A stretch of 64,000 nucleotides of DNA from Arthrobacter sp. MYb229 (lineage in GTDB: Bacteria; Actinomycetota; Actinomycetes; Actinomycetales; Micrococcaceae): positions 744,001 to 808,000 of the forward strand of contig NZ_PCPS01000002.1 of assembly GCF_002975405.1 (NCBI RefSeq), given 5' to 3'. Of the stretch, positions 14,951 to 48,791 are shown piece after piece. The position numbers and the translations under genes are program-made. How positions within the stretch are numbered: position 1 is the stretch's first letter; each line of letters begins with the position of its first letter. The notes beneath the pieces were generated by a model. It was not told the origin of the DNA and did not search any database. It saw nothing but the letters and a program-made list of their open reading frames with translations.

Positions 14951-16474
14951 ATGAAAAATTCCGAATCGTCCACGTTTCTTGCACAGGAGCAGAGCAAGCA
15001 TCTGCAAAAATCCCTAGGCAGAATGGACATTCTCCTGCTGGTGGTTGCAGCAGTTATCTCCATTGAAGTCTTGGGCCAGGTCTCCGGTTTTGGAGGTGAG
15101 ACGTTTACCTGGACGTTGGTTCTCGCTATTACCTTCATGATTCCCTACGGGCTGATCTTTGCGGAGACTGGCGGTGCCTTCACCGAGGAGGGTGGCGTTT
15201 ATGTCTGGACGAAGATGGCCTTTGGCCGAGTAGTTGCGGCCATCGCTTCCCTCTTCACTTGGGTGACTCAGCCGGTATGGGTTGGCGGTGCGATGGCATT
15301 CGTTGCCGTGGAAACCTGGTCGGAGTACGTGGGGCACATTGAGGCTGGTGGGGTGGGCGATTATCTATTCAAGCTCGGGTTCATCTGGATCACGGTCACC
15401 TCGGCGGTTATCAGCCTCAAGCATGGCAAATGGCTGCCATCGCTTGGAGCGATACTCAAGATCCTCTTCCTTTTCTGCTTCTTGGTGGTAACCGCAATCT
15501 ATGGATTCAAGAATGGATTTAACGGTCTGAACCTGGGGTTCTTCTCGCCGACGATGGCCGGCTTCCTCGGGGTCACCCCCTTGCTGCTTTTCTCGTTCCT
15601 TGGCTTTGAATCGGGGAACAGCGCCGCAGGGGAGATGAAAAATCCTGCCAAGGATGTTCCGGTCTCTATCGCCCGCACATCCATGCTCGCAGCCGCGAGT
15701 TACTTGTTACCTGTCTTAGCTATTTTGCTGGTCGTTCCGCTGGACGAAATTACCGGTATCGGCGGACTCTTCGGGGCAATTGCGACGGTCTTCACGGTGT
15801 TCGGACCGGCCGCCGATGCCATGCTCGCGTTGTTTGCCATCGTATTCTGCTTTGTCCTGGTTTCGCAGGGCGCCGCCTGGATGATCATCAGCGACCGGAT
15901 GCAGGCCATGGCTGCTGCGGATGGGTCGTTCTTCGGTGGATTCTTCGGGCACTTCAATCCAAAACTCGGTACTCCAATCCGAGTTAATACTCTTTCGGGT
16001 GTAGTCGCTACCATCTTCATGCTTGCCGCAATGCAGATGTCAGGATCAAACGGGGCGATGTTCGGAGTGGTCCTGACCATCTCGATTTCGACGTTCCTCC
16101 TGAGCTATTTGATTGCGATTCCCGCCGTGGTGATGCTCCGGTTCAAGTACCCCTCGGTAGTACGCCCCTTTAGAGTTCCAGTTTCAAACTCAACGTTTGC
16201 GGTGCTCGGGGGTATCTGTTTCGCATGGATCCTCATCGGTTCCTGGATCGCCGTATTCCCAGGCAGCCTGGAATATGCCTTTGGCATGGACTATGACTTC
16301 GAAGCGATCTGGGGCCTTTCATGGAGCCAGTTTGAGTCGTTTGCGCTAGGCACCTTGGCCAGCATCCTCGCGCTGGGCATCGTCGGATATATTCTCGGCA
16401 GAAAAGTCCGCGAAGAAGAGCGAACCGAGGTGGACGCAATGGCGCCTCCGGAAGTTTCCGTTTCTCATAAATAA
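14951..16474 (+). CDS. APC-family amino acid permease
   Basis: A 507-residue, 12-TM amino acid/polyamine/organocation transporter. The TM1 region (LLVVAAVISIEVLGQVSG) has the helix break, LIFAETGGAFTEEGGVYVWT fits TM2, and LFSFLGFESGNSAAGEMKNP is the family segment in TM6-7. It lies 129 bases after the YtcJ-like gene. It could export or import the amine or amino acid made by the amidohydrolase; substrate unknown. A long hairpin closes the operon. Confidence 0.85.
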   Translation: MKNSESSTFLAQEQSKHLQKSLGRMDILLLVVAAVISIEVLGQVSGFGGETFTWTLVLAITFMIPYGLIFAETGGAFTEEGGVYVWTKMAFGRVVAAIASLFTWVTQPVWVGGAMAFVAVETWSEYVGHIEAGGVGDYLFKLGFIWITVTSAVISLKHGKWLPSLGAILKILFLFCFLVVTAIYGFKNGFNGLNLGFFSPTMAGFLGVTPLLLFSFLGFESGNSAAGEMKNPAKDVPVSIARTSMLAAASYLLPVLAILLVVPLDEITGIGGLFGAIATVFTVFGPAADAMLALFAIVFCFVLVSQGAAWMIISDRMQAMAAADGSFFGGFFGHFNPKLGTPIRVNTLSGVVATIFMLAAMQMSGSNGAMFGVVLTISISTFLLSYLIAIPAVVMLRFKYPSVVRPFRVPVSNSTFAVLGGICFAWILIGSWIAVFPGSLEYAFGMDYDFEAIWGLSWSQFESFALGTLASILALGIVGYILGRKVREEERTEVDAMAPPEVSVSHK

Positions 16475-16796: not shown

Positions 16797-18497
16797 ATGA
16801 TTGGAGGCATGGAGAATACTGCTGCCCCGGCCTGGGTCGCCAACTATCAGCCGGGCGTCCCTGCCGAAATCAAGCTTCCTACCGAGTCGTTAAGCCATAT
16901 GTTCGAGCGTTCGGTCCGCGAGGCCGGCGAGAGCCCGGCCACCGAATTCTTCGGTCGACGGATGAGCTACCTCGAATTGGGCCGACAAGTCGAGAAGGCG
17001 GCCGAGGGGCTGCGCCAGCTGGGTGTGAAGCCCGGAGATCGGGTTGCGCTGGTCCTGCCCAATTGCCCGCAGCACGTCGTCGCGTTCTACGCGGTGCTTC
17101 GGCTGGGCGCGGTGGTTGTGGAGCACAACCCGCTGTACACCTCGCGCGAACTGCGCCACCAGTTCGAAGACCACCAGGCGCGGGTGGTGATCGCCTGGGA
17201 CAAGGTCGTGCCGAACCTGCAGCAGTTCCCCAAAGACGTGCGGATCGATACGATTGTCGCCGTCAATCTGCTCGAGGCATTCCCTGCGGTCAAGCGCCTG
17301 GCACTGAACTTGCCGGTGAAAAAGCTGCGCGAGACCAAGGACTCGCTGACCGCCTCCACGGCAGGCACCATGGCTTGGAGGCAATTGCTGAAATCCGGGC
17401 GATTAAATCCGGCACATCGATACCCCGAGGTTCAGGATCTGGCGGTCATCCAGTACACCTCGGGAACCACCGGGCGTCCAAAGGGCGCAATGCTTACCCA
17501 CTACAACCTGTATGCCAACGCGTTGCAGGGCGAAGCCTGGATGGAAGGCGCCGAAGAGCGCAAGGAAATCCTGTATGCGATCCTGCCGATGTTCCATGCA
17601 TTCGGAATGACCTTGTATCTGACCTTCGGGGTGAAAAAGCAGGGGCTGCTGGTGCTCTTCCCGAAGTTTGAACCGCAGATGATCCTGGATGCGTGGAAGA
17701 AGTCCCCGGCCACCGTGTACTGCGCGGTCCCACCGATCTACGAGCGTACCGCCATGGCAGCCAAAGAGCAGGGCATTTCGCTGCGTTCGGCCAAGTACTG
17801 CATCTCGGGTGCGATGAATCTGCCTGACCACGTGGTGGAGCTATGGGAGTCGATGTCCGGCGGACTGCTGGTCGAAGGCTACGGGATGACCGAATCCTCA
17901 CCGGTGGCCTTGGGCAACCCGTTCCACCCTTCGCGTCGAAACGGCACTATCGGGGTGCCATTTCCTTCGACGCTGATGAAGGTTGTGGATGTGGATGAAC
18001 CTGGCCGTGAGGTGGAACAGGGCGAAGCGGGCGAGCTGCTGATCAAGGGGCCCCAGGTGTTCCGCGGATACTGGAATAACCCGGAGGAGACCGCGAAAAC
18101 ACTTACCGAGGATGGCTGGCTGCACACCGGCGACGTAGTCACCGTCGACCAGGACGGGTTTACCCAGATCGTCGATCGCGCCAAGGAGCTGATCATTACC
18201 GGCGGATTTAATGTCTCGCCTAGCGAGGTGGAGAACGCGCTGCGCCAGCATCCTGCTGTCGCCGACGCCGCGGTGTTCGGCAAGGCGCTGGAACGCGGCG
18301 GCGAAATGGTGGTCGCCGCGGTACAACTCGACGAGGGGGCAACCCTGGACGAGGCCGACCTGCGCGAACACTGCCGCACCTTGCTGGCGGCCTACAAGGT
18401 GCCTAAGCGCATCGTTGCCATCGAGGAAATGCCCCGCTCGATGCTGGGCAAGGTGTTGCGCAAGCAGGTCCGCGAACAGTTCGGTGAAGGGCTCTAG
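16797..18497 (+). CDS. fadD: Long-chain fatty-acid--CoA ligase
   Basis: A 566-residue acyl-adenylate-forming enzyme that activates fatty acids to acyl-CoA. The AMP-binding P-loop is IQYTSGTTGRPKGAML, the A5 motif is EGYGMTESSP, the hinge region contains DGWLHTGDVV and the catalytic lysine is in the C-terminal MPRSMLGKVLRKQVRE. Two starts are close together (16797 and 16809); GGAGG lies too near the second, so the first is preferred with limited confidence. It is monocistronic and convergent with the peptide transporter operon. Confidence 0.9.
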   Translation: MIGGMENTAAPAWVANYQPGVPAEIKLPTESLSHMFERSVREAGESPATEFFGRRMSYLELGRQVEKAAEGLRQLGVKPGDRVALVLPNCPQHVVAFYAVLRLGAVVVEHNPLYTSRELRHQFEDHQARVVIAWDKVVPNLQQFPKDVRIDTIVAVNLLEAFPAVKRLALNLPVKKLRETKDSLTASTAGTMAWRQLLKSGRLNPAHRYPEVQDLAVIQYTSGTTGRPKGAMLTHYNLYANALQGEAWMEGAEERKEILYAILPMFHAFGMTLYLTFGVKKQGLLVLFPKFEPQMILDAWKKSPATVYCAVPPIYERTAMAAKEQGISLRSAKYCISGAMNLPDHVVELWESMSGGLLVEGYGMTESSPVALGNPFHPSRRNGTIGVPFPSTLMKVVDVDEPGREVEQGEAGELLIKGPQVFRGYWNNPEETAKTLTEDGWLHTGDVVTVDQDGFTQIVDRAKELIITGGFNVSPSEVENALRQHPAVADAAVFGKALERGGEMVVAAVQLDEGATLDEADLREHCRTLLAAYKVPKRIVAIEEMPRSMLGKVLRKQVREQFGEGL

Positions 18498-18521
18498 CCC
18501 AAACGATACGGTTCGAACCGG

Positions 18522-18555
18522 CCATGCCGCGGTTGCTAACGCAGCCGCGGCATGG
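18522..18555. terminator. Bidirectional hairpin between fadD and the ABC ATPase gene
   Basis: A perfect 11-bp stem (CCATGCCGCGG and its complement) with a 12-nt loop. It overlaps the last codons of the minus-strand ATPase gene and lies 24 bases after the fadD stop. Confidence 0.6.
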
Positions 18556-20128
18556 CTGTCAGCAGCGAGCGGGTGTACTCGTGCTGCGGGTCGCCGAACA
18601 CGTCGGCGGTAGCGCCCTGCTCGACGATGCTTCCCCGGTACATCACCGCTACGGTATCGCTCATATGCTCGATGACCGACAGATCGTGGCTGATGAACAG
18701 GTAGCTGGTTCCGGTCTCTTGCTGCAGCCGGTCCAGCAGGTCCAAGACGGTCGCCTGAATTGAAACATCCAGGGCCGAGACCGGTTCATCCAAGACGAGC
18801 ACCTTAGGTCTCGGTGCCAGTGCACGGGCGATCGCCAAGCGTTGGCGCTGCCCGCCGGAAAGCTCGCGCGGATTGCGCGAGCCCAGTGCCGGATCCAGTT
18901 CCACCTGTTCAAGGAGTCGGGAGACTTGGGTCCGGTAGCTCGCCCCGCGTTTGCTGCGACCGGCGGAGAGCGCATCGGTGAGCAACTGGCCCACGTTATA
19001 GCGTGGGTCGAAAGAACCCAGCGGGTTCTGGTAGATCGCCCCGATGTTTTCGCGCAGGTATCGGCGCTGGGCTTCGCGTTGCGGTGCAAAATGCTCGCCA
19101 AAGAGCCGCACCGAGCCGGTATCCGGACGTTCCAAGCCGAGCACCAGTCGGGCGGTGGTGGTCTTGCCCGACCCGGATTCGCCGACCAGGCCCAGCGTCT
19201 GTCCTTGCTGAACGACGAAACCGGCCCCCTGCACCGCGGCATGTTTGCCGAAGCTTTTGGACAGGTCCTCCACCACAAGAGCCGGCATCCGAGCAGGCTT
19301 CGCCGGTTCTTGTGCCACGACAGCCGCCTTCGGGGGAGCGAGGCTCAAGGGCTGAAAGCGGGGCACCCCGGACGGGATTGCACGTAAAAGAGTGCGCGTG
19401 TACTCGTGCTGCGGGCGGTTCAGCACCTGGTCGGTGTCGCCGGCCTCGACGATCTTTCCGGCACGCATCACCGCGATCCGATCCGCCAGCTGGGCAACCT
19501 GTGCCAGGTCGTGGCTGATCATCAGCACCGCCCGGCCCGCATTTTTGAGCGCCCGGAGTTGTTCGAGCACCAGGGCGGTCAGCCTGGAGTCCAAGGCGGT
19601 GGTCGCCTCATCGGCGATCACAACTTGCGGGTCCCCGATCATCGCCTGGGCAATGAGCACGCGTTGGCGCATGCCGCCGGATAATTGGGAGCTGCGCTGC
19701 TTCATCCGCCACGCAGGTTCGGGCAGATCCACCGCTTCCAAGGCCTCGCGGACCTTCGCCGTGCGTTCGGGCTTGGACAGCGAGCTGTGTTCCTTCAGCG
19801 CGTCGGCGATTTCGCGGCCCACCGGGCGCAAGGGATCCAAAGCCATGAGCGCATCTTGCAGAATCATCGCCACGGAATTTCCGCGCATCTGCTGCCAGGC
19901 CCGCTCGCTCATCGCGGTGGCGTCCTGCCCCAAGACCGAGAATTTCTCGGCGCTGACCTTGCCGCCGGACAGGCCCAGCAGGCTACGGGCGGTGACGGAC
20001 TTACCGGACCCGGATTCACCTACCAGCGCCAGGCATTCGCCGGCGGACAGCTCGAAGGACACCGAGTCCACCGCGAGCTGCCCGGCGAAGCCCACCGAGA
20101 GGTTCTCGACTTCTAATAAAGGACTCAT
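18536..20128 (-). CDS. Oligopeptide/dipeptide ABC transporter, double ATPase (DppD-DppF fusion)
   Basis: A 530-residue protein with two complete nucleotide-binding domains. The first has Walker A GESGSGKSVTA, signature LSGGMRQR and Walker B VVIADEAT; the second has GESGSGKTTTA, LSGGQRQR and VLVLDEPV. Each is followed by the QHEYTR(T/S)LL segment typical of peptide-transporter ATPases. The domains are joined by a proline/alanine-rich linker near residue 270. The ATG at 20128 overlaps the DppC stop by four bases (ATGA). It energises uptake by the two upstream permeases. The fused form is common in actinobacteria. Confidence 0.92.
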   Translation of the reverse strand: MSPLLEVENLSVGFAGQLAVDSVSFELSAGECLALVGESGSGKSVTARSLLGLSGGKVSAEKFSVLGQDATAMSERAWQQMRGNSVAMILQDALMALDPLRPVGREIADALKEHSSLSKPERTAKVREALEAVDLPEPAWRMKQRSSQLSGGMRQRVLIAQAMIGDPQVVIADEATTALDSRLTALVLEQLRALKNAGRAVLMISHDLAQVAQLADRIAVMRAGKIVEAGDTDQVLNRPQHEYTRTLLRAIPSGVPRFQPLSLAPPKAAVVAQEPAKPARMPALVVEDLSKSFGKHAAVQGAGFVVQQGQTLGLVGESGSGKTTTARLVLGLERPDTGSVRLFGEHFAPQREAQRRYLRENIGAIYQNPLGSFDPRYNVGQLLTDALSAGRSKRGASYRTQVSRLLEQVELDPALGSRNPRELSGGQRQRLAIARALAPRPKVLVLDEPVSALDVSIQATVLDLLDRLQQETGTSYLFISHDLSVIEHMSDTVAVMYRGSIVEQGATADVFGDPQHEYTRSLLTAMPRLR

Positions 20129-36382: not shown

Positions 36383-37444
36383 CTATGCGGGCGGGTAGAG
36401 CATGGTTCCACCAGCAGCGACGCATACGATGATCAGCGTGCCGAGCAAGCCCAGGAGCAACGCTTGGCCACCGGATTTCACGATGCTGCGGAGGTGCACA
36501 CCAAGGCCGAGCGCAAACATCGCGGCCGCAAGCAGCAACGTCTGTACGCTCTGCGCAATCGAGAGGGCGGAATCTGGGAGCAGGCCGGTGGTGCGCAACA
36601 GCATGGCAGCGATGAATCCCAGGACAAAAAGTGGCACGAGCGGAGGATTCTTGCCGCCTTCTACCGAGTGCTTGCGGCGCATGTAGATACCGAGCCCGGC
36701 GATGATCGGGGCCAGCAGGGCTACGCGTGCGAGCTTCACGGTCACTGCCACCGCCAGGGCCGCGGCGCTCACCGAACCGCCGGCGGCTACAACCTGGGCA
36801 ACCTCATGCGTTGAAGCGCCGATTAGCATTCCGGTGCTGCGATCGTCCAGGCCTAGCAGGGCTCCGAGCAATGGCATGGCAGGAATCATCAGCGTTCCGA
36901 AAAGCACGACCAAACCGATTGCGGTGGCCACTTGAGCCTGCTTGGCCCGTGTCACGTTTTCGGCCGCCGCCACCGCAGCCGCGCCGCAAATCGAAAATCC
37001 GGTGGCGATCAGTAGGCGTTGCGGTAGATCCATGCCCATCTTGCCGCCAATCCACAACGTCAGCGCAAAGGTGACGGAGACGGAGAGGAAAACTACCAGC
37101 AGAACTCCGGGGCCCAAGCCGAGGATCGTCCCAAGCGAAAGCTGCAGACCCAGCAGCACGATACCCATTCGCAGGAGTTGTTTCGAAGCGATGGCTATGC
37201 CCGGATCCAGCACCTGCGGGACCGGTGCGACATTGCGCCACACTGCGCCGAGGATGATCGCCAGCAAGAGCGCGCTGAGCCCGTTGAGGAATTGACTGGC
37301 GAATATGCACAGTAAGCCGGTGGCCAGGCAGGCCGCGAGACCGGGGAGCACCATCCGGAGTTTGCCTACCGTCGGTGGATGGGGGGAGGAGTTTGCGGGA
37401 CTGTGCTGCTCATTCATTCCCGGGGCCTGACTGTTCTGTGGCAT
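36383..37444 (-). CDS. yeiH: YeiH/UPF0324 family putative sulfate exporter
   Basis: A 353-residue membrane protein of about ten TMs in the YeiH family. LLAIILGAVWRN, LLRMGIVLLGLQLSLG, IATGFSICGAAAVAA and MLIGASTHEVAQVVAAG are family blocks. Homologues are called putative sulfate exporters, a name resting on limited evidence. It is divergent from a LysR regulator, the same arrangement as yeiH-yeiE in enterobacteria. The hydrophilic N-terminus is about 28 residues; MNEQHSP at residue 10 could be the true start. Confidence 0.85.
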   Translation of the reverse strand: MPQNSQAPGMNEQHSPANSSPHPPTVGKLRMVLPGLAACLATGLLCIFASQFLNGLSALLLAIILGAVWRNVAPVPQVLDPGIAIASKQLLRMGIVLLGLQLSLGTILGLGPGVLLVVFLSVSVTFALTLWIGGKMGMDLPQRLLIATGFSICGAAAVAAAENVTRAKQAQVATAIGLVVLFGTLMIPAMPLLGALLGLDDRSTGMLIGASTHEVAQVVAAGGSVSAAALAVAVTVKLARVALLAPIIAGLGIYMRRKHSVEGGKNPPLVPLFVLGFIAAMLLRTTGLLPDSALSIAQSVQTLLLAAAMFALGLGVHLRSIVKSGGQALLLGLLGTLIIVCVAAGGTMLYPPA

Positions 37445-37501
37445 ATATTCAACTTCTCACGCGAGCCTTGCGGCCGGTATTCCTTGATTCGCTATCACGG
37501 G

Positions 37502-37518
37502 CATATGATCATGATATG
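37502..37518. promoter_or_regulatory. Candidate LysR autoregulatory site
   Basis: CATATGATCATGATATG pairs at seven of eight positions and contains a T-N11-A core. It covers the start codon region of the lysR gene, which would fit autorepression. Confidence 0.35.
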
Positions 37519-38430
37519 GATCAGCATTCGAATGTCATGCAGGATATCGCCCAATGGATCCAGGTCTCATCGCTGACCTTGCTGGTAGGCATCGCGGACC
37601 ATGGCAGCCTCAGCGCCGGGGCGCGGGCTACCGGGATTGCGCAGCCTAACGCCACGCGGGCGCTGAAAACCCTCGAGCGTCGCTTGGGCTATCCGCTGGT
37701 CATCCGGAAGACTACCGGCTCAACGTTGACAGCCGAGGGCGTGCTCACGGTGCAGTGGGCTCGGGAGGTGCTCATTTCGCTGGAAAACCTGGCTGCCGGG
37801 GCACGCACGCTCGCCACGCCGGGAGAATCCGAGCTCGCATTCGGCGCCAGCATGACCGTGGCCGAATACCTCGCACCAACGTGGATCGGCACGCTGCATC
37901 GGAGGTTTTCGAAGGTCAAGCCGCGGATGCGGATCATGAACTCGCAAGATGTAATCTCGGCGGTTCAAAACGGCGAAATGAACTTCGGCTTCGTCGAGAC
38001 ACCTGAAGTTCCGCGGTCTCTGCGCTATCACAAGGTATGGAGCGATGAGATGGTGGTGGTTACCGCCCCATCGCACCCATGGGCACAACGCACAACGCCG
38101 CTCGGTCTCCATGAGCTGCAGAGCACGCCGCTGATCGAACGCGAGGACGGTTCTGGCACAAGGGCGTTTTTGGACTATATCGCCCACGTTGAACGCCCCG
38201 AACCGATCGCTGAGTTCAACAGCAACTCAACGATCTGCCAGTGCGTGGCCGCGGGCATGGGTCCGGCGGTACTGAGCCAGCTCGCCGTCGAGAGCCAGCT
38301 GAGGCTTGGGAATCTAGTTGAGATCCCCTTCGACGGGCCGAGCCTGCTCCGTGAATTTCGTGCGATATGGGTACACAGCCACTCGCTGAGCCCCACGGAG
38401 CAGGCCTTGCTGGACATCGCCAGCGCCTAG
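37516..38430 (+). CDS. LysR-family transcriptional regulator
   Basis: 304 residues from ATG 37516. The HTH is around residues 15-75 (LVGIADHGSLSAGARATGIAQPNATRALK across helices 2 and 3), then an effector domain with the LysR-type hinge. There is no clear Shine-Dalgarno sequence. The usual LysR serine in the recognition helix is replaced (QPNATRALKTLE). It is divergent from yeiH, which it probably regulates, and convergent with the aminotransferase gene 16 bases away. The open frame runs upstream to 37375, inside the yeiH coding region. Confidence 0.83.
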   Translation: MDQHSNVMQDIAQWIQVSSLTLLVGIADHGSLSAGARATGIAQPNATRALKTLERRLGYPLVIRKTTGSTLTAEGVLTVQWAREVLISLENLAAGARTLATPGESELAFGASMTVAEYLAPTWIGTLHRRFSKVKPRMRIMNSQDVISAVQNGEMNFGFVETPEVPRSLRYHKVWSDEMVVVTAPSHPWAQRTTPLGLHELQSTPLIEREDGSGTRAFLDYIAHVERPEPIAEFNSNSTICQCVAAGMGPAVLSQLAVESQLRLGNLVEIPFDGPSLLREFRAIWVHSHSLSPTEQALLDIASA

Positions 38431-38446: not shown

Positions 38447-39694
38447 CTACTTCTGCAGCTTCGAAATCTCGGTTTCCAGCAGCGCCGACAAACGACGCAC
38501 ACCCTCAGCGATCGTCTGTTCATCCACCGCGCAAAAGGCCAGGCGCAGCTTGTGGTGCGCCGATTCCGAGGAGCTGAACGCGGCGCCGGGAATGAAGATT
38601 ACACCGGCTTTCACGCCTTCCTGCAATAGCTCATAGGTATCGATTCCGGCCGGAAGGGTCAGCCAGATAAAGAATCCGCCCTCGGGGTGCGTATGGGTGA
38701 TCCCTGCCGGAAGATATTTGGCCAAGGCTTCGAGCATTGCATCGCGTCGCGAACGGTAGAGCTCGTTGTAGGTCTGGATTTGCCCGCGCCAGTCATGCTC
38801 TTCGAGGTAGGCGCTGATGATCATCTGATTGAGCGTTGGCGGGCACAGCGCCACCGCCTCGCCAGCCAGGTAGAAACGGCGGAACAGGTGAGTTGGTACC
38901 GCGGCCCAGCCGATGCGCAACCCAGGGGAGAGGATCTTGGAGAAGGAGCCCATATAGATGACGTTCTGCTCGTCTAGGCTGCGCAGGGTCGGGGCGGCTT
39001 CGCCTTCGTAGCGCAGCATCCCGTAAGGATTGTCTTCGAGGATCAGCACGCCTTCTTCGCGGCAGATGTCCACGATTTCTGGGCGCCTCTCGGCGGCCAG
39101 CGTGATGCCAGAAGGGTTGTTGAAGTTCGGAATGGTGTAGAGGAATTTGATCTTTTCGCCGGCCGCACGCAATTCTTGGATCTTTGTCCGTAGCGCGTCC
39201 GGAACCAAACCGTTTTCGTCGGTGAGCACCGGGGCTGCCTTCACCTGATAGGCCTCGAAGGAGTTCAGCGCGCCCACGTAGGTAGGGTCTTCGCACAGTA
39301 CCGTGTCGCCGGGGTTGCAGAATACCTTGCAGGCCATGTCCTGCGCCGACTGCGAACCGTTGGTAATGACAACGTCTTCTACCGAAACGTTGGTAATTCC
39401 CTCGGCTGCCATGACTTCGAGAATCTGCGACCGCAATTCTGGAGTACCCAGTCCCGAGCCGTACTGCAATGCGACATGGCCCTGTTCGGTGATGATCCGC
39501 TTGGAGATCTCGCCAATCTTTTCAAGTGGCAGGACCTGGAGGTAAGGGTTGCCGCCGGCCAGCGAAACCAGCGAAGGATCCAACGACAGCTCGAAGACGT
39601 CGCGTACCGCGGACTGCTTGATCCCGGCAGCTCTATCGGAGAAAAGCGTTTCGTGCGTCGTGCGCAGTGCGTCGACTGACTGGTTCGTTGACAT
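38447..39694 (-). CDS. PLP-dependent class I aminotransferase (2-aminoadipate/MocR-domain type)
   Basis: A 415-residue fold-type I transaminase of the LysN/Aro8-like group. VSLAGGNPYLQVLPLE at the N-terminus, GDTVLCEDPTYVGAL, the NNPSG block, DNPYGMLRYEG and the PLP-lysine in YMGSFSKILSPGLRIGW are present, as is the C-terminal LRLAFCAVDE. GAGGAGG is placed well before the ATG at 39694; an upstream in-frame ATG at 39757 is not needed. It is probably active on aromatic or aminoadipate-like amino acids; specificity is not decidable. There is no HTH domain, so it is not a MocR regulator. Confidence 0.88.
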   Translation of the reverse strand: MSTNQSVDALRTTHETLFSDRAAGIKQSAVRDVFELSLDPSLVSLAGGNPYLQVLPLEKIGEISKRIITEQGHVALQYGSGLGTPELRSQILEVMAAEGITNVSVEDVVITNGSQSAQDMACKVFCNPGDTVLCEDPTYVGALNSFEAYQVKAAPVLTDENGLVPDALRTKIQELRAAGEKIKFLYTIPNFNNPSGITLAAERRPEIVDICREEGVLILEDNPYGMLRYEGEAAPTLRSLDEQNVIYMGSFSKILSPGLRIGWAAVPTHLFRRFYLAGEAVALCPPTLNQMIISAYLEEHDWRGQIQTYNELYRSRRDAMLEALAKYLPAGITHTHPEGGFFIWLTLPAGIDTYELLQEGVKAGVIFIPGAAFSSSESAHHKLRLAFCAVDEQTIAEGVRRLSALLETEISKLQK

Positions 39695-39841
39695 GGTCCT
39701 CCTCGACCGGCATCTGCCCGTGGGTAACGGGAAGAACAATTGTGCATGCGGTGGCATGCGAGCAAAGTTTTCTATTAGGCTACTTTGGTATTCCAGCAGG
39801 AAATTTACCAGATGACAAGAACCGGTGCTTTGTATATGGTG

Positions 39842-40287: not shown

Positions 40288-41235
40288 CTAGGCGGGCAGG
40301 CCAACTGTTCGGAAACCTGTGTTGCTGCTGGCGGAATCGGCCGTGTTGTAGCTTCGGGCGGAAACTCGATATCGATTGCAGTAAGATTCGTGGCAAAGGT
40401 GGGATCCTCCGCGCATGACCCGACCCCGTCCGATAGTTGGCCCCTGGGGGTTTAGCTCCGGGCTATTGCGATAGTACTTGGGCAGGAACCAATCCTGGCA
40501 CCACTCCCAGACGTTGCCAGCAATATCGAGGAGTCCCAGCGGATTCGGTGGAAAACTGCCCACTGGTGAAGTTCCGAGATAACCGTCTTGCAAAGTGTTT
40601 TCTCGCGGGAAATTGCCTTGCCAAATATTGCATTGGTGGACCGAATCCGGGGTGAGTTGATTTCCCCATGGGTAGCGTTGCCCTGGCTTTAGTCCGCGAG
40701 CGGCATATTCCCACTGCGCTTCGGTGGGCAGGGTTCTGCCGCTCCAATGACAGTAGGCTAAGGCATCGTTCCAAGAAACCTGCACGACGGGGTGATCTGG
40801 CAAATCCTGCCAGTGGGAGCCTGAACCAGTGGGGTGACGCCAGCTGGCGTTGCGCACGCCCAGCCACCAGTCGGTACCTTCCACCTTCCCCATGACCTCC
40901 TTCGCGGGTGCATTCAGGTAGGCATGGAAAACAGCCGAGTAGCCAAGTTGCTCTGACTCTGTGACGTATCCAGTGGCTAGTGCGAATCGCGAGAACTCGG
41001 TGTTGGTAACCGGGGATGCATCCATGTTGAACGTTGGCAGCGATACCCGGTGAACCGGACGCTCGCCATCGGCGGGATACCCCTCATCAAAGTGGTCGCC
41101 CATCATGAAGGTGCCGCCTGGCACGTCGACCAGCCGCATCGGCCGGTCGCTCATGATTGTGCAGGCCGGTATCTGCATAGCATCTGCCGGTGGGCTAGGT
41201 GTCGGTTCATTGCGTCGAGGCGCGCAGCAAGCCAT
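40288..41235 (-). CDS. Formylglycine-generating enzyme (sulfatase-activating)
   Basis: A 315-residue FGE/SUMF1-family enzyme that oxidises the active-site Cys of sulfatases to formylglycine, using copper and oxygen. The catalytic pair is Cys281 and Cys286 in GGSHLCHESYCNRYR, spaced as in human SUMF1 and followed by the conserved SARSYNTADSASSNTGFR. MVDVPGG-type start, PVTNTEFSRFA, LPTEAQWEYAARG, YPWGN and GNVWEWCQDW are all present. No signal peptide. The ATG overlaps the tetR stop by one base. The Cys-type sulfatase at 47190, in the divergent operon, is its obvious client. Confidence 0.93.
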   Translation of the reverse strand: MACCAPRRNEPTPSPPADAMQIPACTIMSDRPMRLVDVPGGTFMMGDHFDEGYPADGERPVHRVSLPTFNMDASPVTNTEFSRFALATGYVTESEQLGYSAVFHAYLNAPAKEVMGKVEGTDWWLGVRNASWRHPTGSGSHWQDLPDHPVVQVSWNDALAYCHWSGRTLPTEAQWEYAARGLKPGQRYPWGNQLTPDSVHQCNIWQGNFPRENTLQDGYLGTSPVGSFPPNPLGLLDIAGNVWEWCQDWFLPKYYRNSPELNPQGPTIGRGRVMRGGSHLCHESYCNRYRVSARSYNTADSASSNTGFRTVGLPA

Positions 41236-41864
41236 CAGCTATCCGAAGAGTTTGTTTGCGAGTGCAATAAGAACTTGATGGTGGCGCATAGCTGGTCGAT
41301 GAGCAGTGCGGAGCGATCTAGGTCGGGATCCGAAAGATGCTGAAGGTTGATGCCGTCGATGCTGGCGATTAGCATGCGGGAGACTGTCTCAACGTCAGCT
41401 TTCAAAACGGTGTTCGAGCTGGTGGCGGCCTTGCGGAAAACAGCGCTGGTGGACTGAACCCATGCCTCATACATTGACCGGTTGATCTTGTTGGATGCAG
41501 CAATGTCTTCGGGGTCGGCAAGGCGAGTGGTGCGTAGCAGCAGCTCGAAGGTCGTGACCTGTTCATGAGGTGCGTTGAGCATGCGCCGCCAGACGCGATG
41601 TATGTGCAGGTCTACGGCTTCGTCAAGGCCCACGGAATCGGGTATTGGGTCCAGATCACGAGCGTAGTCGCGGCTGAGGTGGTTATAGACCTCGTCTAGC
41701 AGGTCATCTTTGCTGCGAAAGCAATAATGTAGCGCGGCTAAGGGCGCGCCGGCCTCGGTGGCGATGCGCCGGGTGGTGGCTGCTGCGATCCCTTCCGAGG
41801 CAATTACGCGTGCCGCTGCTTCGATGAATTGCCTGCTGCGGTCTTCAACTGATATGCGCGCCAT
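41235..41864 (-). CDS. TetR-family regulator
   Basis: 209 residues. The TetR HTH spans about residues 8-55 (FIEAAARVIASEGIAAATT then LAALHYCFRSKDDLL), followed by an alpha-helical ligand domain. It is co-transcribed with FGE (TGATG overlap) and divergent from the amidohydrolase-ABC-sulfatase operon, with the palindrome ATGACTAAGTCAT between them. It is therefore the probable regulator of the sulfate-ester block. The ligand may be the ester or a breakdown product. Confidence 0.85.
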   Translation of the reverse strand: MARISVEDRSRQFIEAAARVIASEGIAAATTRRIATEAGAPLAALHYCFRSKDDLLDEVYNHLSRDYARDLDPIPDSVGLDEAVDLHIHRVWRRMLNAPHEQVTTFELLLRTTRLADPEDIAASNKINRSMYEAWVQSTSAVFRKAATSSNTVLKADVETVSRMLIASIDGINLQHLSDPDLDRSALLIDQLCATIKFLLHSQTNSSDS

Positions 41865-41964
41865 AGTTCCTGTCCCAAATCACTACTGTCTTTTGGACTC
41901 TAGCCGATCGGCTGGGGCCCTTCATGGAGGCTGCCTAAATTAATTTTCCCACAAAGCTGGTCAA

Positions 41965-41977
41965 ATGACTAAGTCAT
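41965..41977. promoter_or_regulatory. Candidate TetR operator of the sulfatase block
   Basis: ATGACTAAGTCAT is a perfect 5-3-5 palindrome, 101 bases from the tetR start and 69 bases before the amidohydrolase start. The first ATG of the long open frame lies inside it and has no ribosome site, so the palindrome is more likely control DNA than coding. Confidence 0.5.
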
Positions 41978-42045
41978 ACGACATACTACTTGGAGTTGTT
42001 ACTCGCATCACACGGCATGCGGGAAATTGGAAGAAAGGGGGACCC

Positions 42046-43749
42046 ATGGCTGACGAACTGGCTCAGTTGGTTATCCACTCGGGTGTAGTTCCTGGCATCG
42101 GACTCGCAGCCGACATCGATGCTGCGCATTGCGATGGACGGCCCAGTGCCGTAGCCGTCCGGGATGGCAGGATCATTGCCATTGGAGATGAAGATTTGCT
42201 TCGCCTGGCCGGGCCGGAAACCACGGTCATCGATGCTCGTGGAGGAGCCATCCTGCCTGGACTGAACGACGGGCATCTGCACTTCTCCGCCAGCGCGATG
42301 ATCCGCCACGCACACCTCTCGGTGGCGACCGCAGCGAACTGGACCGAGGTTGCAAAGCTCCTGGACACGGCCAAACCCGACGCCAGCGGCTGGGTACGTG
42401 CCGCAAGCTGGGACGAAGTCCGGCTAGGTAGCGTTGACTCCGAACTACTGCTGGCAGCTAACAGCCGGTGGCCAGTAGTCGCCTTCGATACGACGGGCCA
42501 TCAACTCCTGGTAAACGCCGTGGGCTTGAAGATCTTGGGTCTGGAACACATAGATGAACCTGTGCCTGGTGGGGTGATTGGACGACTCGCGGATGGTTCA
42601 CCCAGCGGGCTCTTCGGCGATGCGGCCATGCAGCTGGTAAACGACGGGCTGCCTAGTTTCACCGAAGATCAGCTGCGTACGGCCTTCATAAAACACCAAC
42701 AAGAGCTGCACTCTCTCGGGATCACTTCGCTCACGGAACCAGGTCTTGGACCCGGCGGCCGCACCTTGATGGCCGCAAGCTGTGGCACGCAGTCGTTGGA
42801 GATTCTTGCAGATTTGGCTCACGAGGGGCTGCTTAGTTTGCGATTGAACTGCCTGCTACTTTTTTCGGGCACTGGTGGTGAATCACTGGAAGCAGTGCGA
42901 ACCGGACTGGCAGGAGATCTTCCAACCATTGCGAAAGGGATAGATCCACTTCGCTTACGCATCGCGGGGGTAAAAGTATTCGCCGATGGTATCCCGCGTT
43001 CGGGAACTTCGTGGTTCCACGACGAATACCAACTCCCATGCGGACATGGGCATGGAGCCCTCGTGCTCCGGGGGAACAGTGACGCGGAAAAAGTCGCAGA
43101 ATTTCGACAAATCATTTCCGAGATCGAGGCGGCTGGTTTGCAAGCCGGGGTGCATGTGACCGGGGACGCCGCCACCGAAGCTCTGATCGAAGCGGTGGAA
43201 CAGCTCGATGTCGAAGCCGGGCCGCGGGGAAATCGCCACTACATCATCCACGGCGCCTTCCGGGATCATGAGCTATTGGACCGGGTGCAACGAGCCGGCA
43301 TGGGATACAGCACCAACCCAAAAATCCGTGCCGAAGCGGGCACGCTCATACGTCGGCTACTAGGGCCAGATCGATTCACCATGCAGCAGCCACTGGCCAC
43401 GGCAGCACTGCGGGGAGTAGCGGCCTCGTTGGCCTCCGATGCGCCGGTCACCAATCCGGACTGGCGCAACAGCATCATCTCGGCGGTTACCCGCGATACC
43501 AGTGCGGGACCGGGCGCGGACGATAGTGAACGAATCAGTCTGGCACAGGCATTGGCCATGATGACCCAGACACCAGCCTGGCAGGACCACGCGGAGCAAG
43601 ACAAAGGAAGCATCAAAGTGGGTCAGGTCGCCGATTTTTGTATCCTGCGCGACCCGCTTTCGACGGACATCCAGCAACTTGCGCAGAACCCTACAACCCA
43701 CACCATAGTCAACGGCGACGTGGTGTACCGACTTAACTCGCTCAATTGA
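42046..43749 (+). CDS. Amidohydrolase 3 (YtcJ-like) in the sulfatase block
   Basis: 567 residues in the YtcJ group of the amidohydrolase superfamily: an N-terminal beta domain, the metal motif LPGLNDGHLHFS, a barrel with GVHVTGDAA and YIIHGAFRD, and the C-terminal Asp in SLASDAPVTNPD. AAAGGGGG sits just before the ATG at 42046; the open frame from 41965 has no ribosome site and crosses a palindrome. It is the first gene of the operon, 22 bases ahead of the binding-protein gene. It could cleave an amide or ester in the same compound that carries the sulfate. It is only distantly like the copy at 13172. Confidence 0.83.
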   Translation: MADELAQLVIHSGVVPGIGLAADIDAAHCDGRPSAVAVRDGRIIAIGDEDLLRLAGPETTVIDARGGAILPGLNDGHLHFSASAMIRHAHLSVATAANWTEVAKLLDTAKPDASGWVRAASWDEVRLGSVDSELLLAANSRWPVVAFDTTGHQLLVNAVGLKILGLEHIDEPVPGGVIGRLADGSPSGLFGDAAMQLVNDGLPSFTEDQLRTAFIKHQQELHSLGITSLTEPGLGPGGRTLMAASCGTQSLEILADLAHEGLLSLRLNCLLLFSGTGGESLEAVRTGLAGDLPTIAKGIDPLRLRIAGVKVFADGIPRSGTSWFHDEYQLPCGHGHGALVLRGNSDAEKVAEFRQIISEIEAAGLQAGVHVTGDAATEALIEAVEQLDVEAGPRGNRHYIIHGAFRDHELLDRVQRAGMGYSTNPKIRAEAGTLIRRLLGPDRFTMQQPLATAALRGVAASLASDAPVTNPDWRNSIISAVTRDTSAGPGADDSERISLAQALAMMTQTPAWQDHAEQDKGSIKVGQVADFCILRDPLSTDIQQLAQNPTTHTIVNGDVVYRLNSLN

Positions 43750-43771
43750 GAAAGACATCGAAGGTACCAAA

Positions 43772-44767
43772 ATGCAAAAACGAGCTCTAGCAGCAGCTAC
43801 GACCCTCACCCTGGCCCTGTCTCTGACGGCGTGCTCCGCAGGGAGCGGCACCGCCGACGGAGAAGATGGGGGGATGGAGAAGTTCACCGTCGGTGTCATC
43901 GGGATAGGCTCGGACGCCGCTATCCAGACGGCCATCGACAAGGGATACTTTGCCGAGGAGGGCTTGGACGTGGAGACAACGGTTGTCGCGAATCCGCCTG
44001 CTGGAATAGCCGCGGCTCAATCCGGTCAGCTCGACGTTGCCTACACCCCGTCGATCCCGCTCATAAACGCACTTTCGCAGAATATAGAACTAAACGTCAT
44101 TGCGGCAGCGGACGGCTACGCAACAGAGGCCTTGGAAGGCAAGGACCCGGGAAAATCCGATGATACGGGGTTGTTCATACGGCCGGATAGCGGCATTGCC
44201 CGCGCGCGCGATTTAGCGGGCAAAAGGATTGCAGTGCCCGCCCGCAAGGCACAGCTTGAGGTCACCGTGGCCAACATGGTGTTGAAGGACGGGGGAGACC
44301 CCGCGAGCATCAATTGGATGGTGCTGGATCCTGCCAGCTCACTGCAGTCGTTGCAGCAAGAACGCGTCGATGCGGCCGGTTTAGTGGCACCTTTCACCAC
44401 TAACGCACAAGCTGAGGGAATGAAGCTGCTCGGAAGCCCTGGAATCGAGTTTTTTGAGGCCGGGGCCGTAGGGCTATGGGTGGCTGGGGCCAAGCAGATA
44501 GCCGAAGAACCCGAAAGCGTTGCCGGCTTCCAACGCGCTATCTATAGGGCAAACGCCTACGCCAACGAACACCTGGATGAGATGGACGAACTGGCTTCAG
44601 AAATTACCAGCCTCGATTTGGAAACTATCAAAAACGGCGCCGATCCGTACTGGCCGAGCAGCGTTGAACTCAAGGACTTGCAGCGTGTCGACTCCAACCT
44701 GGTCAACCTTGGGTACCTGAGCCAGGAGGTGGGGCTTGATGAAACGCTCATCCACGGTGCCCAGTAG
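43772..44767 (+). CDS. ABC substrate-binding lipoprotein, SsuA/NMT1-like
   Basis: 331 residues. A lipoprotein signal (MQKRALAAATTLTLALSLTAC, lipobox LTAC) is followed by an acidic Gly-rich linker and a type 2 periplasmic-binding fold of the NMT1/THI5/SsuA group, with IGSDAAIQTAIDKGYFAEEGLDV and AGIAAAQSGQLDVAYT. Relatives bind sulfonates, taurine, nitrate or pyrimidine precursors. Its 3' end overlaps the next permease gene by 29 bases. In this context it should capture the sulfate ester handled by the sulfatase. Confidence 0.88.
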   Translation: MQKRALAAATTLTLALSLTACSAGSGTADGEDGGMEKFTVGVIGIGSDAAIQTAIDKGYFAEEGLDVETTVVANPPAGIAAAQSGQLDVAYTPSIPLINALSQNIELNVIAAADGYATEALEGKDPGKSDDTGLFIRPDSGIARARDLAGKRIAVPARKAQLEVTVANMVLKDGGDPASINWMVLDPASSLQSLQQERVDAAGLVAPFTTNAQAEGMKLLGSPGIEFFEAGAVGLWVAGAKQIAEEPESVAGFQRAIYRANAYANEHLDEMDELASEITSLDLETIKNGADPYWPSSVELKDLQRVDSNLVNLGYLSQEVGLDETLIHGAQ

Positions 44768-45602
44768 ACGAGACGGGCAGACGCTCTCGCAAAAGCCCGG
44801 CAACCAGAATGAGGCTCGTGGAATCAACTACGAGTCGCCAGCAGCCAAGTTCGGCTTCGGGATCCTCGGTGCTGTTTTGCTACTCGGGCTGTGGCAGTTT
44901 GCCGCGATCCGCGGAACTTTCGGGAATGGGCTTCCAACGGTGTCCGCAACACTGATCGAGCTCTTCGCCCTGTTCGGTAATCCCGAATTCTGGACCGACA
45001 CTTTCACCACTATCTGGCTCGCGGTCTTGGGCATGGTCATCGCGGTGGTTGCCGGCGTGATGCTCGGCCTTCTGATCGGCACCATCGATTGGGTGCGATA
45101 TGCAACTCTGGCTGTAACCGAATTCTTCAAGCCCATACCGCCGATCGTCGTGCTGCCGCTGTGCGTGATGATCTGGGGCCCAACAAATACCATGGCACTC
45201 GCCCTAGTGCTGCTCGGAACCGTCCTGTCAACCACTATTCAGGTAATTGCGGGAGTAAACGACACCGACCCGGTGGCGCTGAGTACTGCCCGTTCCTACG
45301 GGATGGGCCGTGTCGAACGCCTGCTGCGCGTCACCCTTCCATCAGCTTCGCCTTACATCGGTACGTCCGTACGCATCGGAGCCCCCGCGGCCCTGATCAT
45401 AGTGGTGGTTGCAGGTTTGCTCGGCGGAGCGCCGGGCTTGGGAAGCGCGATTTATCGTTCCCAGTCTGCCGGGGATTTCCCGCAAACCTACGCGCTGGTT
45501 CTGGTGCTTGGTGTGTTGGGGCTCGTTGCCCAGAATCTTTCGAGCATGATCGAACGACGTGTGCTTCATTGGCACCCGGCCTTCCGGGAGGACGTAAAGT
45601 GA
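44739..45602 (+). CDS. ABC transporter permease, SsuC-like (first)
   Basis: A 287-residue inner-membrane permease with about six TMs and a BPD_transp_1 domain; the coupling segment is STARSYGMGRVERLLRVTLPSA. AGGAGGT lies exactly eight bases before the ATG at 44739, which overlaps the binding-protein gene by 29 bases. The hydrophilic N-terminus is about 35 residues. It pairs with the next permease as a heterodimer. Confidence 0.88.
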   Translation: MKRSSTVPSRRDGQTLSQKPGNQNEARGINYESPAAKFGFGILGAVLLLGLWQFAAIRGTFGNGLPTVSATLIELFALFGNPEFWTDTFTTIWLAVLGMVIAVVAGVMLGLLIGTIDWVRYATLAVTEFFKPIPPIVVLPLCVMIWGPTNTMALALVLLGTVLSTTIQVIAGVNDTDPVALSTARSYGMGRVERLLRVTLPSASPYIGTSVRIGAPAALIIVVVAGLLGGAPGLGSAIYRSQSAGDFPQTYALVLVLGVLGLVAQNLSSMIERRVLHWHPAFREDVK

Positions 45603-46375
45603 AACGCCACCTATTCAACCTAGCCTTGGCCATCACGGCCCCCTTTGTGCTGATCCTCGCGTGGTTCAAGGCATCCAGCCAGTCGACCAATGCGTTTTTC
45701 CCGCCGTTGAGTGATATTTTGGTTCGTTTTGCCGACTTATGGATTTTTGAACACTTTGTTAGTGACATCATCCCGAGCATGCGTAACTTGATCATCGGCT
45801 TCGCCCTGGCTGCGGTGCTCGGTGTGGTCATCGGATTCATCCTTGCTACGGTGCCAGTTCTGCGCGTCTTGTTCGAGCCATCGTTGCACCTGCTACGTGG
45901 TATTCCGCCGGTGGCTCTGGTTCCGATCCTGATTACTCTGGTCGGTTTCACCGACCAGATGCGCATTTCATCAATCGTGATCGCTGCGGTCTTCCCGACT
46001 TTGATCGCGACCATGGATGGGATCAAGGCTGTAGATGCTTCGTTGAAAGACGTGTGCACCGTCTACCGGCTCGATCGCAAAGACCGGTTGCTGTCGGTGT
46101 ATCTGCCCTCGGCCAGTCCACAGATTGCCGCAGGCATGCAAGTTAGCTTATTAGTGGCATTCATTGTGATGATCGCTTCCGAAATGATGGGCACCGCACA
46201 GGGCATCGGCGCGATGACCCTGCTTGCGCAACAGACCTTCATGGCTGCTGACATGTGGGCCGGGATACTCTTACTCGGCCTTATCGGCTTTCTGAGCAAC
46301 GTCCTTTTCGACCTCGTCAAAAACCGGGCACTGTCCTGGTACATCGGATCCAAGAAAATGGAGAAGGTATCGTGA
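45599..46375 (+). CDS. ABC transporter permease, SsuC-like (second)
   Basis: 258 residues. The GTG start at 45599 overlaps the previous stop by four bases (GTGA) and follows GGGAGGA. Six TMs and the coupling loop CTVYRLDRKDRLLSVYLPSASP mark it as a BPD_transp_1 permease of the nitrate/sulfonate/taurine class. Most SsuABC-type systems use one permease as a homodimer; two distinct ones here are less common. Its stop overlaps the ATPase start. Confidence 0.87.
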   Translation: MKRHLFNLALAITAPFVLILAWFKASSQSTNAFFPPLSDILVRFADLWIFEHFVSDIIPSMRNLIIGFALAAVLGVVIGFILATVPVLRVLFEPSLHLLRGIPPVALVPILITLVGFTDQMRISSIVIAAVFPTLIATMDGIKAVDASLKDVCTVYRLDRKDRLLSVYLPSASPQIAAGMQVSLLVAFIVMIASEMMGTAQGIGAMTLLAQQTFMAADMWAGILLLGLIGFLSNVLFDLVKNRALSWYIGSKKMEKVS

Positions 46376-47193
46376 ACTCCACCATCCCCACCACTACACA
46401 GCCCAAAGCAGGGTCCACACCTGTCGCGCGACTAGAAGTTCAAGGCCTTGCCAAAACATACGGACACGGACCGAAATCCGTTGAGGTCATCAAAGACCTG
46501 ACGTTTTCGATACATGCTGGCGAAGTGGTGTGCATTGTTGGGCCTTCGGGCGTCGGCAAAACCACCCTGCTCAAGTGCTTGGCAGGACTTCAGCCTTCAA
46601 GCGGCGGGACCATGAAGATCGATGGACACCAAGTCTCCGGCCCACCGGCCGAGATGGCGTTGGTGTTCCAGGACTACTCGCGGTCGCTGATGCCGTGGCT
46701 GACAGTTGAGAAAAACCTGCTCCTGCCGCTGCGCCATTTGCATCTCCCAGCGGCCGAGGTTCGCACTCGGATCGAGGAAGCGCTGAATGAAGTAGGACTG
46801 TCCCACGCAGCGAAACGTTATCCATGGCAGCTCTCGGGCGGGATGCAGCAACGTGTGGCGATCGCTCGGGCATTGGCCTACCGCCCGGAGATCCTGATCA
46901 TGGATGAGCCATTCGCGTCGGTGGATGCGCAGACCCGATTCGATTTGGAGGACTTATGCCTGAAGATCCGCGATGAGCTAGGAATGACGATCTTGCTCGT
47001 CACGCACGATATCGACGAAGCTGTCTATTTGTCGGATCGAATTGTTGCCATCGGCAACAAGCCGGCCCAAGTCCTCGAAGTCTTGCCCGTCGATCTTCCC
47101 CAGCCGCGCAATCAGATCACCAGCCGTGCATTACCGGAATTCTCCGGTCTGCGCACGAAGGTCCTGTCATTGATTCGGCAGTCCGAATCATGA
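46372..47193 (+). CDS. ABC transporter ATPase, SsuB/TauB-like
   Basis: A 273-residue ATPase: Walker A GPSGVGKTT, Q-loop VFQDYSRSLMPW, signature LSGGMQQR, Walker B ILIMDEPF and the H-loop THDIDEAV. The Q-loop with LMPWLTV is typical of nitrate/sulfonate/taurine ATPases. GTG start at 46372 in a GTGA overlap; its stop overlaps the sulfatase start (ATGA). It powers import through the two upstream permeases. Confidence 0.92.
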   Translation: MNSTIPTTTQPKAGSTPVARLEVQGLAKTYGHGPKSVEVIKDLTFSIHAGEVVCIVGPSGVGKTTLLKCLAGLQPSSGGTMKIDGHQVSGPPAEMALVFQDYSRSLMPWLTVEKNLLLPLRHLHLPAAEVRTRIEEALNEVGLSHAAKRYPWQLSGGMQQRVAIARALAYRPEILIMDEPFASVDAQTRFDLEDLCLKIRDELGMTILLVTHDIDEAVYLSDRIVAIGNKPAQVLEVLPVDLPQPRNQITSRALPEFSGLRTKVLSLIRQSES

Positions 47194-48791
47194 GCGGACC
47201 AGAGGTGACGCGCCCAAACATTCTAGTTTTCATTGCTGACCAACTACGTGCAGACCATTTGGGAGCATATGGAAATGATGAAGTGCGTACCCCAAACCTC
47301 GATCGGTTAGCAGAACGGTCCACCGTGTACGAGAACGCACATGTGGCGAATCCGACCTGCATGCCCAACCGGGCCAGCCTGCTGACAGGACGCTGGCCGA
47401 GCGCGCACGGCACGCAGTACAACGGTATTCCCGTTGATCCCGAGGCTTCGACGTTTGTTCGCCAACTGGCCAGTTGTGGATACCGAACCTCAGCGGTAGG
47501 AAAATTACACCACCAGAACATGGGATGGGACTTTGAGCCAGAACAGCTTGAACAGATCAGGGCCAGTGCTCCGGGGCTGATGGACCCTCGATTGCCCGAT
47601 GCATTTAACCGACTCCGAGAACCAGGCTGGGATCAGTGTGAAAACCGGGAACGTCATGCTGCTTCGTTCATTCCGATGCCCGAAGACTATTACGGTTATC
47701 AGAATGTAGACCTTGTCATTGGGCATGGCGATGCTCCGGGCGGACATTGGGCTCACTGGGCCCGCGAACAAGGCATAGATCCCGAGTTGCTGGGCGGCTC
47801 AAAAGCCGGTACCAATGTGCTTGATAGCTGGGAACAAGTTTATACGTCATCGATTCCTGCCTCTGCACACCCGACTAGGTATATCGGGGTGAAGGCCAGC
47901 GAGCAGGTGCGCAAAGCAGCTGGCGAAGACGATCCTTTTTTCATGTTCGTTTCTTTTCCCGACCCGCATCATCCCTTTGCCCCGCCGCGTGAATACTCGC
48001 GTCGGTACGACCCCGACAGTTTGTCGCTTCCGGTTGGATTCGGCCAAGACCATTCGCGTTCTCCAGAGCACATTCGGAAGATGATCGCTCAACGCGGGCA
48101 ACCCAACGGAGATCCAACCATGACGTTTTCGGTGACGGAGACGCAATATCGGATGGCAGCCGCCGCTCAGTATGGCCTGATCGAGTTTATGGACGAGCAA
48201 ATTGGCGAAGTACTTCAGACTCTGGAAGAAACTGGGCAGGCAGATAACACCATTGTGGTATTTACTTCCGACCACGGTGACCTCTTCGGCGATCATGGAT
48301 TGATGCTCAAGCACTTCGTCCATTACCGAGCCGTCACGAGGGTCCCGCTGTTGATTCACATGCCCGGGCAGAAGGTCGCAGAGCACAGGGCCGATTTGAT
48401 TTCCAGCGCCGATCTGGCCCCGACATTTATGGATCTGGCACAGGTTCCAGCATTCCGAGGAATCCAGGGGCGGAGCCTGTCAGAAAACGGTGAGCTACGT
48501 GTCGGCGACGGTGCACGCGCTTTGCTGATCGAAGAGGACCAGCCGTTTTCACTGGAGGGACTGCCTGCGCCGGTTCGCATGCGCTCGGTCATCACCCCCG
48601 AAGGGAGGCTGACTAAGTATTTCGGTACCGATACCTACGAACTCTATGATCATCGGAACGATTATGACGAGATGGAAAACCTAGCGGGTTTGCAACAGGC
48701 TCAGGGCCTCAAGCATCGACTTGAAATGGCGTTGAATGAAGAATTGGTGAATCTAGCATCTGCCCAAGTCAGGCCAGTGGCGTCGGCTTAG
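47190..48791 (+). CDS. Cytoplasmic type I sulfatase (formylglycine-dependent)
   Basis: A 533-residue S1-type sulfatase of the alkaline phosphatase superfamily that hydrolyses sulfate esters. The metal ligand Asp17 is in NILVFIADQLRADHLG. The site to be turned into formylglycine is Cys57 in NPTCMPNRASLLTG, a CxPxR motif with Met and Asn at the variable places. Later FTSDHGDLFGDHG and LMLKHF carry metal and sulfate ligands. There is no signal peptide, so it works inside the cell on imported substrate. ATGA overlap with the ATPase gene. Choline-sulfatase-like overall, but the substrate is unknown. Confidence 0.92.
   Translation: MSGPEVTRPNILVFIADQLRADHLGAYGNDEVRTPNLDRLAERSTVYENAHVANPTCMPNRASLLTGRWPSAHGTQYNGIPVDPEASTFVRQLASCGYRTSAVGKLHHQNMGWDFEPEQLEQIRASAPGLMDPRLPDAFNRLREPGWDQCENRERHAASFIPMPEDYYGYQNVDLVIGHGDAPGGHWAHWAREQGIDPELLGGSKAGTNVLDSWEQVYTSSIPASAHPTRYIGVKASEQVRKAAGEDDPFFMFVSFPDPHHPFAPPREYSRRYDPDSLSLPVGFGQDHSRSPEHIRKMIAQRGQPNGDPTMTFSVTETQYRMAAAAQYGLIEFMDEQIGEVLQTLEETGQADNTIVVFTSDHGDLFGDHGLMLKHFVHYRAVTRVPLLIHMPGQKVAEHRADLISSADLAPTFMDLAQVPAFRGIQGRSLSENGELRVGDGARALLIEEDQPFSLEGLPAPVRMRSVITPEGRLTKYFGTDTYELYDHRNDYDEMENLAGLQQAQGLKHRLEMALNEELVNLASAQVRPVASA

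Follow-up and report, generated by a model that had tools for sequence, protein, structure and literature searches.

A conserved, predicted import-and-desulfation gene cluster of Micrococcaceae with a possible link to phenolic arylethylamine catabolism

In the ats system of Pseudomonas, the SsuA-type importer AtsRBC is encoded beside the cytoplasmic formylglycine sulfatase AtsA. In animals and insects, phenolic amines are eliminated after conjugation to sulfate or acyl groups; to our knowledge, little is known of how environmental bacteria reclaim such compounds. In Escherichia coli, tyramine oxidase is under the control of FeaR, an AraC-family regulator (PMC4640556), and titles by Murooka in the reference lists of two papers (PMC4640556, PMC8070173) report that enteric bacteria regulate tyramine oxidase and arylsulfatase jointly. 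Here we describe a gene cluster at positions 40288–48791 of a 64,000-nucleotide stretch, referred to as the window, from the genome of Arthrobacter sp. MYb229 (4.0 Mb, 23 contigs). Its core is a conserved import-and-desulfation unit, a variant of sulfate-ester utilization rather than a new category, and a literature search for a named system combining a sulfatase, an amidohydrolase, an NMT1-type protein and TauE returned none. The predicted role in import and desulfation is well supported.

Profile and NCBIfam models confirmed all eight genes of the locus, in the families and orientations given in a preliminary description made from the sequence alone. Two genes lie on the reverse strand, encoding a formylglycine-generating enzyme (FGE; 40288–41235; PF03781, 272 bits) and a TetR-family regulator (41235–41864; PF00440, with a weak BetI-type C-terminal domain). 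The forward strand carries a YtcJ-type amidohydrolase (Amidohydro_3) of 567 amino acids (42046–43749; PF07969, 212 bits), a substrate-binding lipoprotein with the lipobox LTAC (43772–44767; PF09084), ATP-binding cassette (ABC) permeases A (44739–45602) and B (45599–46375), both matching PF00528, an ABC ATPase of the SsuB/TauB/NrtD type (46372–47193; PF00005, while the NCBIfam models ntrCD and TauB score below their cut-offs), and a cytoplasmic type I sulfatase (47190–48791; PF00884 and PF16347). Re-reading the starts on the sequence (ATG 44739 for permease A, GTG 45599 for permease B, GTG 46372 for the ATPase and ATG 47190 for the sulfatase) places a 29-bp overlap between lipoprotein and permease A, 4-bp overlaps at the three following junctions, and a single shared base between TetR and FGE. 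The 22-bp interval between amidohydrolase and lipoprotein is the sole gap, so all junctions but one overlap, as originally stated. The amidohydrolase most likely starts at ATG 42046 and not at the upstream ATG 41965, because the latter falls within the conserved operator and promoter described below.

To describe the distribution of the unit, we sampled 295 genomes of the family Micrococcaceae. An orthologous sulfatase occurs in 26 of them, at 58–76% identity besides the window's own, and the next tier, after a sharp drop, aligns over only a portion of the protein at about 34% identity. TetR, amidohydrolase, lipoprotein, both permeases, ATPase and sulfatase form a core of seven genes that is contiguous, with constant order and orientation, in 24 of these 26 genomes; in the other two it is split by contig ends, and the operator and neighbors lie on a separate contig. 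At every contiguous Micrococcaceae locus TetR adjoins the core. Conservation of the gene set, a check proposed in the preliminary description, was thus found for the seven-gene core. One genome from another family of the same order also has all seven genes, and freshwater Actinobacteria carry six of them, without TetR, in altered order and at 33–62% identity. Three loci titled Bifidobacterium breve metagenome-assembled genome (L082, L085, L090) contain clusters of the freshwater type that group with a Nanopelagicales sequence, and their titles are probably wrong. The plasmid search returned only relatives below 40% identity. Proteobacterial sulfatase relatives were rejected as members of the same system, as TRAP, tripartite or major facilitator superfamily importers adjoin them and the amidohydrolase is missing.

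The sulfatase has the C-x-P-x-R formylglycine motif as CMPNR at residues 57–61, kept in all relatives compared, and lacks a signal peptide; Cys57 is the residue already assigned as the one converted by FGE in a signal-less enzyme. Each of the ten active-site residues compared with choline sulfatase is conserved, and alignment through Marinobacter BetC matches D17, R61, N78, K105, H107, H260, D361, H362 and K374 to D14, R58, N75, K102, H104, H201, D296, H297 and K309 of the Sinorhizobium meliloti enzyme. Catalytic residues are common to all compared sulfatases. In a tree with 66 other relatives, the sulfatases of the unit, from Micrococcaceae to freshwater carriers, form one clade (Shimodaira–Hasegawa-like approximate likelihood ratio test support 99). 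Residues in four stretches (111–116, 308–311, 375–376 and 451–453) are invariant or nearly so in this clade only, which suggests that its members may share one substrate. The predicted structure has a sound fold, with a predicted local distance difference test score (pLDDT) below 50 in the loop around Cys57, and we therefore draw no argument from the modeled pocket. Directly behind the sulfatase, TauE-family genes are found in two lineages; as their proteins are just 25% identical, they were probably acquired twice, and their presence fits sulfate or sulfite as waste. A genome-wide TauE search was uninformative on its own, given too many copies per genome. A different pairing of importer and sulfatase is seen in Prescottella and Tomitella (L094, L095), where sulfatase relatives lie behind an apparent peptide-type ABC importer and an AMP-ligase.

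The FGE matches that of Streptomyces coelicolor (2q17) at an E value of 1e-112, and alignment to this structure places its catalytic cysteines at C281 and C286 in GGSHLCHESYC; both, as expected from the first reading, are present, and they are invariant in 18 cluster FGEs. An FGE is encoded in 25 of the 26 genomes with the sulfatase, versus 54 of the 269 without (P = 4e-15, a value that ignores relatedness). It adjoins the core in 19 of the 26, with both sides and both orientations represented. Six of the seven genomes without an adjacent copy encode FGE elsewhere, and in the last only a partial FGE at the end of a contig and a weakly matching sequence were seen. Because the local copies are scattered in the FGE tree and do not form one group, the linkage to the core probably arose several times. 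We rejected FGE as a fixed operon member on these grounds (adjacency missing in 7 of 26 genomes, varying positions and polyphyletic local copies); it is an accessory to the import-and-desulfation unit. The image of a self-contained island with its own FGE, coupled to one sulfatase, is not supported: FGE lies outside the core and was probably recruited repeatedly, and the host genome holds a second, divergent FGE/sulfatase pair.

This second pair (contig C22; positions 461–2689 of locus L036) is 34–38% identical to that of the window, and the same contig carries an HpaE gene at 17876–19336. In another locus (L048), an FGE fragment lies downstream of the sulfatase (2994–3527) and an intact FGE on the TetR side. 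Next to FGE in the window is a pyridoxal phosphate-dependent aminotransferase (38447–39757), which is likewise beside FGE in a relative of the same genus (L037; 82% identity). Further out, a YeiH-type membrane protein (PF03601) and a divergent LysR regulator (36383–38430) form a pair that adjoins the opposite side of the cluster in L040 and L042, from another genus. YeiH as a partner exporter is a weak lead, since only the window and that one other genus have it close to the cluster.

For the lipoprotein, a Foldseek search with the AlphaFold model (pLDDT 88) confirmed a two-domain NMT1-type fold, with TauA as the best match and E values of about 1e-17 to TauA and SsuA, which are also the nearest solved sequences. 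The SsuA family model TIGR01728 gives 80.5 bits, below its cut-off of 163.5. In the alignment, Asp205 of TauA is replaced by Gly234, SsuA likewise having Gly; Gly61 and Gly79 of TauA correspond to prolines that are invariant or nearly so; and the Ser/Thr loop of TauA aligns with the segment PARKAQ, which carries the invariant Arg158. As these pocket positions differ from TauA, the lipoprotein probably represents a separate type of binder. The preliminary description spoke of two distinct permeases. There are indeed two genes, and their products are homologues with 25% identity that most simply pair as a single heterodimeric channel. Since the sulfatase is cytoplasmic, FGE-dependent and coupled to its own ABC importer, the sulfate ester is probably imported intact, in line with the original proposal. 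The amidohydrolase has a complete metal site (H77, H79, K310, H370, H402 and D465, invariant in 29 orthologues), and its nearest full-length solved relatives are uncharacterized. Its constant presence suggests an N-acyl group on the substrate and fits an early guess of a compound with both a sulfate ester and an amide-type bond.

The intergenic regions between TetR and amidohydrolase have the block CTGGTCAAnTGACnnAGTCATnCGACATACT in common. In the window, the conserved operator CTGGTCAAATGACTAAGTCATACGACATACT (41957–41987) consists of two tandem GTCAnnTGAC-like boxes over a putative −35 (TGGTCA) and −10 (CATACT) element. The core pattern is present in 25 of the 26 sulfatase genomes, and a reversed control pattern gave no matches. 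Genome-wide, all sites with at most one mismatch lie at the cluster, and the search for a wider regulon found no other site at this threshold. The regulon is therefore probably the cluster alone, and TetR would act as its repressor.

The flanks of the cluster in related genomes offer a lead to the substrate. Of 27 genomes, 11 encode a copper amine oxidase (PRK11504, PF01179) no more than 12 kb from the cluster, against an expectation of 0.26, and 5 encode HpaE of the homoprotocatechuate (Hpa) pathway at this distance, against 0.19. These flanks also encode FeaR-like regulators of the AraC family, amino-acid permeases and aldehyde dehydrogenases; among the best-scoring models for the dehydrogenases, none of which reaches its cut-off, are those for aminobutyraldehyde and phenylacetaldehyde dehydrogenase. 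The amine genes are found in at least four arrangements, near TetR in one genus and near the sulfatase elsewhere, with differing order and strand. In Arthrobacter sp. B6, an aldehyde dehydrogenase gene lies directly behind the sulfatase, and the cluster and FGE are contiguous with genes for phenol 2-monooxygenase, an HpaG-like protein, HpaE, HpaD, HpaH, an HpaI-like aldolase and an amine oxidase, of which HpaD, HpaE and HpaH exceed their model cut-offs. One freshwater locus has HpaD-, HpaE- and HpaG-like genes nearby, below cut-off. The HpaG model search yielded nothing over cut-off and was not used.

Elsewhere in the window, positions 6813–16474 group a TetR regulator, a copper amine oxidase, a nucleobase-type permease, a second YtcJ-type amidohydrolase, which shares 27% identity with that of the cluster, and an amino-acid permease. 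In locus L203, one 126-amino-acid protein start occurs twice within 6 kb (6378–6758 and 11629–12009) and looks locally duplicated.

We hypothesize that the cluster encodes an uptake-and-unmasking pathway controlled by TetR. The lipoprotein and the two-permease ABC importer would bring a small O-sulfated molecule unaltered into the cytoplasm, where the amidohydrolase may strip an amide or acyl group and the sulfatase, after FGE has converted Cys57 to formylglycine, would remove the sulfate by S–O cleavage; this order of steps is the one we propose. Given the amine oxidase, Hpa and TauE-family neighbors and the enteric pairing of tyramine oxidase with arylsulfatase, the likeliest substrates would be sulfate esters of phenolic arylethylamines of the tyramine or dopamine type, or their N-acyl conjugates. 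Copper amine oxidase and aldehyde dehydrogenase would then turn the freed amine into a hydroxyphenylacetate, which may enter the homoprotocatechuate meta-cleavage pathway. The compound would thus serve as a source of carbon and nitrogen, with sulfate as a by-product. We favor, as a tentative but quite plausible reading, that O-sulfated phenolic arylethylamine conjugates are imported, deacylated and desulfated. A narrower proposal is possible and held more tentatively: soil and freshwater Actinobacteria would have a dedicated cytoplasmic pathway for phenolic arylethylamines that are both O-sulfated and N-acylated, for example the sulfates of N-acetyltyramine and N-acetyldopamine, and this pathway would feed amine oxidase and the homoprotocatechuate route.

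Several observations weigh against these substrates. Fourteen of the 27 genomes, some of them draft contigs, have no amine oxidase seen within 30 kb; they include the window's genome and most of one genus. As the window's nearest amine oxidase (7498–9444) lies 32 kb from the cluster, the substrate lead rests on the relatives. Catabolic genes tend to cluster anyway, and the carrier genomes are related rather than independent; the Poisson P values for linkage are accordingly too small. The lipoprotein lacks the amine-binding Asp of TauA and its pocket is unlike the sulfonate pocket, which leaves any ligand assignment putative, and YtcJ homology alone does not reveal the chemistry of the amidohydrolase. 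The same unit might thus act on another amide-bearing or cyclic-amide sulfate ester unrelated to arylethylamines, the nearby amine genes merely reflecting catabolic islands. This is a real possibility: the constant part of the core is amidohydrolase, importer and sulfatase, the amine linkage is missing in about half of the genomes, and most freshwater carriers have no amine oxidase in their genomes. It accounts less well for the recurrent adjacency in at least four arrangements, together with a FeaR-like regulator, aldehyde dehydrogenase and permease.

The other explanations appear less probable than either arylethylamine conjugates or another amide-bearing ester. General sulfur scavenging from sulfate esters under sulfate scarcity, as in ats and ssu systems, would suit an SsuA/TauA-type importer with a cytoplasmic sulfatase, which recalls the pseudomonad ats arrangement. 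We consider it unlikely in view of the dedicated TetR with an operator unique to the cluster, the TauE-family genes and the linkage to carbon catabolism. Cleavage of phosphonate or phosphate esters is suggested by phosphonate monoester hydrolases among the fold relatives; it is very unlikely, as Lys105 and His107 are kept as in choline sulfatase, the PehA model (NF045661) scores 155 bits against a cut-off of 900, and TauE-family genes are among the neighbors. Least credible is a choline-O-sulfate pathway. The choline-sulfatase model TIGR03417 is the second NCBIfam match, and betC beside choX elsewhere shows that a choline sulfatase can adjoin importer genes, but its 220 bits fall short of the cut-off of 433 and no betaine genes were seen in the cluster. 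Furthermore, the sulfatase is 42 alignment columns shorter than BetC and lacks the C-terminal tail that helps to build the choline-sulfatase active site (PMC5870055). E448 aligns near Glu386, which contacts the quaternary ammonium in choline sulfatase, and Glu is found there in nearly all relatives too.

With its inferred substrate class, the unit suggests what a sulfatase clade and a binding-protein clade, both now lacking an assigned function, may do. It would also help to explain the pairing of sulfatase and tyramine oxidase in unrelated bacteria, and culturable carriers such as Paenarthrobacter aurescens TC1 and Arthrobacter sp. B6 make the proposal testable.

Among described systems, the unit appears to resemble Pseudomonas ats in placing an SsuA-type importer beside a cytoplasmic formylglycine sulfatase; it differs in its two permeases, its fixed amidohydrolase, its TetR with a unique operator and the amine and Hpa links in relatives. 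With the enteric tyramine oxidase/arylsulfatase system it shares the association of a sulfatase with copper tyramine oxidase. There, however, the two are linked by regulation and not in one locus, and the arylsulfatase is secreted and has a different activator, whereas the present cluster combines a cytoplasmic FGE-type sulfatase with an importer and an amidohydrolase. The choline-O-sulfatase BetC has similar active-site residues, the same fold group and possible adjacency to importer genes, in contrast to which the cluster sulfatase lacks the tail, the family-level score and choline genes. The arylsulfatases SpAS1 and SpAS2 (4upi, 4upl) are among the nearest solved relatives in sequence and fold, but structural alignment gives an identity of only about 24%, and we know of no importer or amidohydrolase partner for them. 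TauABC and SsuABC share the binding-protein fold, with Gly234 as in SsuA; relative to TauA, the prolines at Gly61 and Gly79 and the PARKAQ segment with Arg158 in place of the Ser/Thr loop point to a putative pocket distinct from that of the taurine binder.

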